Part shown: positions 2,373-47,614 of the stretch, one piece after another
Layout: each line of letters starts with the position of its first letter
Position numbering within the stretch: the first letter of the stretch is position 1
DNA from: Erythrobacter mangrovi
GTDB lineage: Bacteria > Pseudomonadota > Alphaproteobacteria > Sphingomonadales > Sphingomonadaceae
Assembly: GCF_013260645.1 (NCBI RefSeq)
Contig: NZ_CP053921.1
Span: forward strand, 682,001 to 746,000
DNA: 64,000 bases
Direction: 5' to 3'
Notes under the pieces: generated by a model
What the model was told of the DNA's origin: nothing
The model's database searches: none
Seen by the model: only the letters and a program-made list of their open reading frames with translations
Translations under genes and position numbers: made by a program

Positions 2373-2837
2373 CTACCCGCTCTGCGGGTTCCAGGCCCAG
2401 CATTCCATTTCCACCCGCGCGCCCAGCGCCAGGCCATTGACGCCCAGCGCCGAACGTGTGGGATAGCTGCCCTTGGTGAAATGCTCGGCGTAGATCGCGT
2501 TGAAGGCGGGCCACTCGCTCATGTCGGCGAGGAACACGGTGCATTTGAACACATCGTCGAAGCCCAGCCCATGCGCAGCAAGCGTCGCGCCAATGCGCGC
2601 GAACATTGCCCGCGTCTCGGGCTCGATCCCGCCGGGCACCACCGCGAGCCCGCTCTCATCCGCGCCGATATCGCCCGACAGGTAAAGCACATCGCCCACC
2701 TGCACCGCGCTGGAGAAAGGATAGGGCAGCGTCGAGGGGGAGAAGACGGGCGGCGCGGGTTCCTCCGCCACGGCGGGGGCGGCCGTGATCAGCGCGGCGG
2801 AGAAAGCGGCGACACAGGCACGCGAGCGGACGGACAT
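2373..2837 (-). CDS. Exported RidA-family protein
   Basis: A 154-residue protein with a Sec signal peptide (ACVAAFSAALITAAPAVAEE; cleavage near 25). The rest is a RidA/YjgF/UK114 trimeric domain: VGDVLYLSGDIG, ARIGATLAAHGLGFDDVFKCTVFLAD, and YPTRSALGVNGLALGARVEMECWA. The Arg of the TRSALGV stretch corresponds to the catalytic Arg of enamine/imine deaminases, so deaminase activity is possible. Periplasmic location is unusual for the family. ATG 2837 is chosen because the signal peptide starts there; the frame stays open further upstream through a repeat array, which is taken as chance. The repeat tail ends 79 bp upstream. Confidence 0.82.
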   Translation of the reverse strand: MSVRSRACVAAFSAALITAAPAVAEEPAPPVFSPSTLPYPFSSAVQVGDVLYLSGDIGADESGLAVVPGGIEPETRAMFARIGATLAAHGLGFDDVFKCTVFLADMSEWPAFNAIYAEHFTKGSYPTRSALGVNGLALGARVEMECWAWNPQSG

Positions 2838-2915: not shown

Positions 2916-3117
2916 AGGATGGAACATGTGGAACAGGGTCCAGCGATAAAAACGCCGATTGCGTGACCCTGCGCCGCAAAAGCGTGACCCTGTAGCCTGC
3001 CGTGTCACCCAAGGGGCCCGAACCGTCACCCTGCGCAGGCGACCTGTCATCCAGAACGCGCGCAAAGCGTCACTATGCCGGCGGAGCGCCGTCACCCGTT
3101 TGGCCCCAAACTGTCGC
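2916..3117 (-). repeat. Phased GTSAC-box array with TGGAACA tail, copy 1
   Basis: Eight boxes reading GTGAC/GTCAC (two degenerate: GTCAT, GTCGC) start at 2963, 2984, 3004, 3025, 3046, 3069, 3091 and 3113. The spacing is 20-23 bp, about two helical turns. At one end lies a conserved tail: ATTGC next to the first box, then a GATAAAAA tract, GGTCCA, and the pair TGGAACATGTGGAACA ending at 2916. A second copy of the same length sits at 47324-47526. On the minus strand the array reads towards the RidA gene. The two outer boxes overlap the end of the HTH gene, and one box supplies its TGA stop. Confidence 0.8.
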
Positions 3118-3391
3118 CCCATTCGGCATAAGGCACCGGCTTCCGGGCGAGCAGCGGATGGACTGGCTTGCGGCCCCGCCGCGACGAGGCACGCCGCCGC
3201 TTCGCGAGCTCCATCGCCTGTTCCCAGAATTGTGCGAACTGCGGCGCCCGCGCGCGCAGGCGATAGGCGGCCTGCCGGCTCATCCCCACCTCCCGCGCCG
3301 CGCGCGCTACCTTGCCGTGCCCCGCCAGCAGCTTGAGGAAGGCCGCGGCCTTGGCGCCGGTCCAGCGGCTATTGTCGGGTTTGGTGCTCAT
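3092..3391 (-). CDS. Small helix-turn-helix protein
   Basis: A 99-residue basic protein. Residues about 26-50 (GKVARAAREVGMSRQAAYRL) form a clear helix-turn-helix of the resolvase/terminase-small-subunit style (NV.RAAR..GMSR...YR). A basic tail follows (AKRRRASSRRGRK). It has no sensor or enzymatic domain, so it looks like a simple DNA-binding protein. It begins 40 bp after the intradiol dioxygenase gene on the same strand, and its stop codon lies inside a GTGAC box of the adjacent array. Binding to that array is an attractive guess without proof. Confidence 0.7.
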   Translation of the reverse strand: MSTKPDNSRWTGAKAAAFLKLLAGHGKVARAAREVGMSRQAAYRLRARAPQFAQFWEQAMELAKRRRASSRRGRKPVHPLLARKPVPYAEWGDSLGPNG

Positions 3392-3430
3392 CCGTGAGGA
3401 TAGGGCACGAATGGGGGTTTGTAGGAAAGG

Positions 3431-46650: not shown

Positions 46651-47253
46651 TCATCCCGCCGCCCTCTTCAATGCCACGCGGATCAAGTCGCTTTCGCTCG
46701 CGCCGTCGCCCAGTTCACCTTGCGCCAACGCCACCGCGCGGGCGGCCACGGCGGGCTTGAACCCGAGGTTCTCGAGCGCGCTGACCGCATCGGCGCTGGA
46801 ACTGCCTGCGAGCGGCGCAGCGGCAGTGACGCCGCCACCGCCACCGGGCAGCGCCCCGGCCTTGTCCTTCAACTCGTTGACGATGCGACCGGCCAATTTC
46901 GGCCCGACGCCATTGGCGCGTGCGACCATCGCCGCATCGCCCTGCGCGCAGGCCTGCTGCAATTCACCGGTCGACAGCGCGGAAAGGATGGCAAGGCCGA
47001 CCTTGCTGCCCACGCCCTGCACCTGGGTCAGCAGGCGAAACCAGTCGCGTTCCGCCGCTTCCGCGAAGCCGAGCAGGCGCATGTCGTTCTCCGACACCTG
47101 CAGGTCGGTATAGACCGTGCAGGCCTCGCCGCGCTCACCCAGCGCGGCGAGCGTTTTCGACGAGCAATGGACGAGATAGCCTACGCCCTGCACGTCGATC
47201 ACCGCCCAGTCGGTGCCGGTTTCGTCGAGCAGGCCTTTGAGCTTCGCAATCAT
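46651..47253 (-). CDS. ruvA: Holliday junction DNA-binding protein RuvA
   Basis: A 200-residue RuvA. Domain I is [20 protein letters not shown] and [12 protein letters not shown]; domain II has the two helix-hairpin-helix motifs [20 protein letters not shown] and [20 protein letters not shown]; after a Gly-rich linker (GALPGGGGG) comes domain III ([20 protein letters not shown]), which contacts RuvB. ruvC is not in the window. The phased repeat copy 2 ends 71 bp upstream of its ATG. The stop overlaps the possible first ATG of the DsrE gene. Confidence 0.95.
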
Positions 47254-47323: not shown

Positions 47324-47526
47324 AGGATGGAACACCTGGAACACGGTCCAGGATAAAAAGCGCCAATTGCGTCACCGTCGGGCCCCAAAGCGTCACCTTG
47401 CGCGCCCGAGTGTGACTTGCGCCGGGGAAAGCGTCACCCTTGCCAAGCGCAGTGACATCCAATTCTGCGCAAATCGCCATTCTGGCACCTCCCGCGCCGT
47501 CACCCTTCTGGCAGCACATCTGTCAC
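47324..47526 (-). repeat. Phased GTSAC-box array with TGGAACA tail, copy 2
   Basis: GTCAC/GTGAC boxes start at 47371, 47392, 47412, 47433, 47452, 47499 and 47522, with a decayed box (ATCGC) near 47473. The spacing of most is 19-23 bp. The tail is the same as in copy 1: ATTGC, GGATAAAAA, GGTCCA, then TGGAACACCTGGAACA, and AGGAT. Total length is 203 bp versus 202 bp. It lies in the divergent gap between ruvA and aroC, tail towards ruvA. A one-base indel in the tail compared with copy 1 breaks any shared reading frame. Confidence 0.8.
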
Positions 47527-47614
47527 CCTGGCCCATGCCGTCTTCGCCAGCCAATGCCACCGAAGGCCAAGCGTAGGAAAGTGAAGCTTGCTCGACACGC
47601 GCGGGGAGCAGGCT

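Follow-up and report, generated by a model that had tools for sequence, protein, structure and literature searches.

A stretch of the Erythrobacter mangrovi genome raises the question of why an array of short, evenly spaced repeats should stand, twice and in the same orientation, before two unrelated genes. The window, which means the whole stretch of 64,000 nucleotides that was analysed (contig NZ_CP053921.1, positions 682,001 to 746,000), holds both copies on its minus strand. The first-pass annotation described each as a run of GTSAC boxes closed by a paired tail. A scan for the boxes recovers all eight positions claimed for copy 1, only six of which are exact, as the box at 3046 reads GTCAT and that at 3113 reads GTCGC, with one mismatch each. 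The seven good boxes and one decayed box claimed for copy 2 are confirmed by the same scan; the exact ones lie at 47371, 47392, 47412, 47433, 47452, 47499 and 47522, with the decayed one in a 47-bp gap. The distances from the tail to the next start codon, 79 bp to the RidA-like gene and 71 bp to ruvA, were also correct. A span of 202 bp contains seven GTSAC words in copy 2 and six in copy 1, against no more than four in the rest of the window and a maximum of five in 200 first-order simulated windows. The tail is present in both copies; even when three mismatches are allowed, the window has no third site, and 100 shuffles gave none. On the minus strand it reads GGACCnTGTTCCAnnTGTTCCATCC and is preceded in both copies by a T-tract. 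The word TTTCCTA[CA] also has just two sites in the window, both of the form TTTCCTAC and one in each copy; this box is referred to as P1. Copy 1 follows the order P1, HTH gene, array, T-tract, tail and ridA, with the HTH gene placed between P1 and the array and overlapping the far end of the latter. The features are as follows.

3421 to 3428, minus strand: P1 box of copy 1, TTTCCTAC, with the HTH start codon 37 bp on
3092 to 3391, minus strand: HTH gene of copy 1, encoding the 99-aa protein P0002, small-terminase-like by profile
2963 to 3117, minus strand: array of copy 1, eight boxes at a spacing of about 21 bp, six of them exact GTSAC; the first boxes overlap the end of the HTH gene
2946 to 2952, minus strand: T-tract of copy 1 (ATAAAAA on the plus strand)
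2917 to 2941, minus strand: tail of copy 1, one inverted and two direct half-sites
2373 to 2837, minus strand: RidA-like gene downstream of copy 1 (PF01042)
47573 to 47580, minus strand: P1 box of copy 2, TTTCCTAC
47371 to 47526, minus strand: array of copy 2, eight boxes, exact except for one that has decayed, without an HTH gene
47353 to 47359, minus strand: T-tract of copy 2 (ATAAAAA on the plus strand)
47325 to 47349, minus strand: tail of copy 2
46651 to 47253, minus strand: ruvA downstream of copy 2, 200 aa by the gene caller, with residues 1-188 matched in 59 of 60 genus genomes

Both copies are real, but the statement that the element is present twice falls short of its true extent. 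The 25-bp tail occurs at 26 sites in the 3.06-Mb genome at up to three mismatches, while a reversed-pattern control finds none. The eight-box array is restricted to three of these 26 (L003, L004 and L023), where the boxes lie between P1 and the tail. The shared orientation of tail and next gene, noted for the two copies, extends to 20 of the 26 tails (for 19 the next feature is a called gene of like orientation, and for one it is rnpB) and fails for the remainder, with four facing an opposite gene and two inside coding sequence. These last two groups would be left unexplained by a plain promoter role. The strand orientation of the 26 sites is mixed, as judged by eye. The search for further copies that had been proposed also succeeded in relatives. 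At up to two mismatches, the tail is found in 22 of 61 genomes, a sample of 37 from the genus (E. mangrovi included) and 24 others of the order, and all 22 belong to the genus. A public species collection contains at least 120 tail stretches; among the 80 matches listed, 77 are from Erythrobacteraceae or from unclassified Sphingomonadales or alphaproteobacterial records, and the other three (L182, L226 and L239) were taken as chance and dropped. The consensus covers approximately 45 bp and consists of the T-tract, CAGGACCG, two TGTTCCA units nine bases apart and TCCTGTAGGA (100 of 103 elements).

Several known categories were compared with the tail and rejected. The LexA box of Alphaproteobacteria is defined as GTTC-N7-GTTC; the spacing of the tail is wrong for it, as units nine bases apart give GTTC-N5-GTTC. 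EcfG, parS and Tus-like sites were weighed informally alongside it. An intrinsic terminator is not general, with a strong hairpin before the T-tract in a few elements such as L005 and L012. A leader peptide is an attractive reading at L016 and was rejected because the frames differ between loci and between orthologues. It has also been noted that a tail inside coding sequence is read as a Pro-Val-Pro-rich linker at L011, L177, L241 (a phage-lysozyme-like gene) and L018 (a long HTH gene). At L071 and L161, a partial tail with a single GTGTTCCA lies no more than about 50 bp after the stops of two further HTH genes of E. mangrovi.

The tail has a regular upstream partner. A T[TG]TCCTA box occurs in the 750 bp upstream of all 26 E. 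mangrovi tails and, among the public matches listed, of 46 of 54 tails (23 of the 77 listed were left out for want of flank), and in the 750 bp downstream of none in either set; its reverse complement lies upstream of one E. mangrovi tail and two public ones. The nearest P1 is 60-135 bp from the tail in 20 of 26 and 35 of 46 cases, respectively, again among the matches listed. This gap grows to about 155-280 bp where there is an array without an HTH gene, to about 425-590 bp with an HTH gene, and to about 540-560 bp in units with an intervening DUF6456 gene (PF20057, as tested for the E. mangrovi copy). In 28 of 32 loci, genes of the HTH family have their ATG at +36 or +37, counted from the start of the box, a total that includes L153 through a spurious hit; there is none in L136, L138, L142 and L147. 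Because the box stands 36-37 bp from the ATG of the regulator gene, P1 is read as the putative -35 element of a leaderless promoter. Taken alone, the word TTTCCTAC shows no enrichment across the genome, with 63 occurrences versus 57 for the reversed word. At glyS, its eight bases are kept in 27 of 29 aligned genomes. Other synonymous codons of glyS, mainly 50-77, are as well kept in the aligned set (L284-L314), and conservation of the word alone is therefore no proof of P1 there. The conserved synonymous codons near the end of glyS perhaps reflect an internal promoter of ppdK.

The boxes are held in a fixed register with the tail. Across 11 array elements from seven genomes (three from E. mangrovi, three from one MAG and one from each of five genomes), 59 of 63 boxes fall no more than 2 bp from a single grid counted from the first tail unit, with starts at -32, -53, -73, -94, -115, -138, -160 and -182. 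The resultant of the array periodicity is 0.90 at 21.3 bp in these elements, and the DNA between the boxes is unrelated from one to another. The spacing near 21 bp is kept in other genomes; with this and the further copies, neither of the two outcomes that would have counted against the first-pass annotation is seen. Outside the model, the ruvA leader of G061 (L376) carries nine boxes on the grid from -31 to -203, and L381, L378 and L382 are also on it. L372, a weak array match in G004, is off the grid and L374 partly so, and no recognised tail accompanies the array matches at L370, L371 and L377. There are 14 GGTGAC pairs in the E. mangrovi genome, five within the three array elements and nine that looked isolated.

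Searching 60 genomes of the genus with the array model gave arrays in 10 (E up to 1e-3) and strong arrays (1e-8 or better) in six. Four of these six encode an intact P0002-type HTH protein (at least 100 bits), G021 has a broken copy, and none was found in G028. In the other 54 genomes, a P0002-type HTH is present in G033 only, with a decayed four-box array about 0.9 kb behind the gene. Strong arrays occur almost only in genomes with a P0002-type HTH, in a comparison that was not blind (HTH loci had supplied four of the 11 sequences in the model), that used a cut-off of 100 bits picked after the list had been seen, and whose counts ignore relatedness. The order P1, HTH gene, array and tail is repeated in G030, G017 and G061, and in G021 with the broken HTH. 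In L130-L133 and L137, the array either overlaps the HTH gene or comes after it. As judged by eye, the more distant relatives found in G022, G003 and G067 are accompanied by AAGCCGAC boxes and a tail of another type. The suggestion in the first-pass annotation that the HTH protein at 3092 be tried as the binding partner has gained weight, as the gene is nested within the element and arrays are found together with this type of HTH.

P0002 has 91 homologues, and the minority with an organism name are from Erythrobacteraceae. Pfam and NCBIfam return weak, generic matches only for the HTH proteins. PHROG 4044, a terminase small subunit family, matches all three members tested, at 9.9e-10 for P0002 (residues 7-63), 6.9e-15 for L143 and 4.7e-20 for L163 (residues 33-152); on P0002, the match spans little beyond the HTH. 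One listed relative carries the name Terminase from a source. No PDB chain was matched by sequence at E up to 0.1, and the AlphaFold2 monomer model (mean pLDDT 78) is confident in a helical HTH region and poor at one end. The family is probably related to the small terminase, a phage DNA-packaging protein.

At fixed loci, the type of site changes between species. In the glyS-ppdK region, TTTCCTAC lies inside glyS in 29 of 31 genomes and is absent in L300 and L311. The site before ppdK, in our sorting of types, is TGnTCCA in 14 of the 31, TGTAACA..CGGTCCA in three, TGTCAAC in two and GGTGACA..TGTCACC-like in 11 (E. mangrovi included), and is absent in one. In 30 genomes compared at ruvA, 20 have neither P1 nor tail, one (E. 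mangrovi) has the array, four have TGTTCCA solos, two have TGTAACA types, and three have P1 with no tail of these kinds. These states are scattered over a poorly resolved tree. Other repeats are seen in the same intergenic region: just before the ruvA start in L103, L105, L107, L110, L113 and others stands a unit like GCGCTCATGCAGCGTAGCGGTAGCGCAGAAAG, about 30 bp long and in some cases present in two or three copies; aroC-ruvA regions that lack the element have in common a different conserved block, about 50 bp long, containing the inverted repeat GTCCA..TGGACC (L101, L102, L106, L109-L111, L116, L117 and others); and a palindromic GTCTCGAC-type repeat fills the ruvA leader in L108 and L126.

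The GGTGACA..TGTCACC tail, designated type iv, is found in 27 of 60 genomes with up to 12 matches each, some places being counted on both strands; the control and E. mangrovi gave none. P1 is upstream in all 20 of the type-iv loci read. This tail goes together with a second type of HTH protein: 24 genomes have both, eight the HTH only, three the tail only and 25 neither (p 4e-7, relatedness ignored, with a cut-off of 130 bits picked after the list had been seen), and all 14 genomes with at least four type-iv matches have the second HTH type. In 11 genomes, a second-type HTH gene is followed by a type-iv tail at a distance of 97-231 bp from its aligned end. The copy in G075 holds a stop, and that genome has no type-iv tail. 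Seven genomes with a stop-free match, E. mangrovi included, have no type-iv tail within two mismatches. The E. mangrovi relative of this type (G000:C1:1316201-1316671; L160 and L356) scores 159 bits and has TTTCCTAC upstream, and no start codon near +36 was found for it by script.

From the observed architecture, recurrence and register of the element, and from the observed co-occurrence of HTH type and site type, we lean, if only slightly, towards the view that it is a cis-regulatory module of Erythrobacteraceae, in which diversifying, autoregulatory, small-terminase-like HTH proteins would be paired with cognate operator modules. Transcription would start at P1 from a leaderless promoter. 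After a short spacer or a gene, the tail would act as a composite operator made of the T-tract, one inverted half-site and two direct ones. As the HTH genes are encoded in units of the same build (P1, HTH gene, tail), their proteins would be expected to autoregulate through their own units. They may also act in trans on the solo P1-tail modules, which mostly stand before housekeeping genes. The protein of 3092 would bind the GTSAC boxes as adjacent molecules along a single face of the DNA, at intervals of two helical turns, with the register of the loaded protein set by the tail. The filled operator may then gate the transcription begun at P1. Promoter activity, binding and gating, including the direction of the gating, are predicted here from sequence. 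A more detailed version of this scheme is doubtful. In it, the subunits of a terminase-like ring would read eight to nine boxes every 21-22 bp on wrapped DNA, nucleated at the tail, and so gate nearby transcription; rival protein types would compete for conserved loci and switch the site sequence between species. Small terminases display their HTHs in a ring, and wrapping of DNA round the rim is one model and a disputed one, according to the available text of two accounts (PMC4737164, PMC7672466).

The likeness to small terminases suggests an alternative, distinctly unlikely in our estimate, that the arrays are domesticated phage packaging sites of the pac or cosB kind, with a terminase-like ring serving a gene transfer agent or the packaging of a prophage remnant. 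Phage TerS with pac/cosB (SPP1, SF6, lambda) likewise pairs a TerS-profile HTH protein, which the PHROG 4044 matches recall, with repeats beside its gene. The direct-repeat sets of SPP1 pac span the terS start (PMC4737164, available text), much as the array here abuts the HTH gene, and in one published model DNA is wound round a ring of HTHs (PMC7672466, available text). P1 and the tail also occur at a DUF6456 gene and a phage-lysozyme gene. However, the HTH genes are chromosomal orphans, the boxes are strictly 21 bp apart, and phage records gave no direct match to the proteins or the element. Most tails are without an array and stand as solo sites, mostly before housekeeping genes, and 20 of 26 have a gene of the same orientation ahead of them. 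No large-terminase gene was noticed among the open reading frames flanking copy 1. In the available text of PMC6854486, the small terminase of the Rhodobacter gene transfer agent appears to be without an HTH.

It is very unlikely that the element is a mobile family, in which the HTH-gene unit would be autonomous and the solos internally deleted derivatives with the same two ends. The two ends are constant around a variable interior, tails of one type are multi-copy within a genome (nine identical ones in G021), the ruvA states are scattered, and TGTAGGA, which matches the TCCTACA of P1 in inverted form, closes many of the tails. Nonetheless, orthologous loci are filled in many species, though with different types, P1 at glyS-ppdK lies within coding sequence, no target duplication is seen in the flanks by eye, and profile searches found no transposase match for the HTH family. 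The proposal of a mobile element in the first-pass annotation has lost ground accordingly.

Least probable of all is an RNA-level leader, in which the tail, once transcribed, would control translation or termination for the gene that follows. In its favour, a start codon lies 19-32 bp beyond the end of seven of the 26 tails, many tails lead into an AGGA-like stretch, and the few strong hairpins above would suit it. Against it, the tail is no more structured than shuffles (mean z 0.17 over 61 elements), the sequence ahead of the T-tract is no more structured than controls (mean z -0.13 versus -0.38 and -0.06), the motif frames differ among ruvA orthologues, one copy precedes the untranslated rnpB, and no Rfam match covers the element in 16 of 26 E. 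mangrovi loci (gathering threshold) or five glyS-ppdK loci (E up to 1), so that the initial view of a DNA-level element stands.

The cis-regulatory reading also finds partial parallels in other systems. Plasmid iterons are arrays whose sites recur roughly every two helical turns next to a gene for a DNA-binding protein (Rep), followed by an A/T tract. The element resembles them in spacing, adjoining gene and tract; it differs in that the HTH protein has no Rep-family match in Pfam, NCBIfam or PHROGs and that three arrays are chromosomal in E. mangrovi. GafZ is, we presume, a DUF6456 protein, and a DUF6456 gene is among the units here. GafY/GafZ of the Caulobacter gene transfer agents resembles the element in combining a small DNA-binding activator with about 20 chromosomal sites, as its available text describes. 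A GafY site was nevertheless rejected, since the published element, at about -123 to -113, reads differently by eye, and that text contains no box array or variable tail. The TAACTGA repeats of Beggiatoaceae are also short direct repeats before many unrelated starts, ribosomal ones included, but consist of one fixed heptamer, and the available text names no partner promoter box or internal HTH gene (PMC4679880). The literature searched, which mostly excludes subscription papers, contains neither of two 16-mers of the tail, no account of the element and no link between small-terminase paralogs and Erythrobacter.

The recognition of packaging sites by small terminases is described as a matter of continuing debate in the available text of PMC7672466. 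With its eight to nine sites for a terminase-like HTH protein, the array, which is natural and defined by sequence, would offer a testable substrate for this question. For the Erythrobacteraceae, the element looks like a regulon in which positions have been kept while the recognised sequence has been replaced; units of this same kind also encode the presumed cognate protein. If the regulon reading is true, this would be a natural case of co-evolution between a regulator and its sites.
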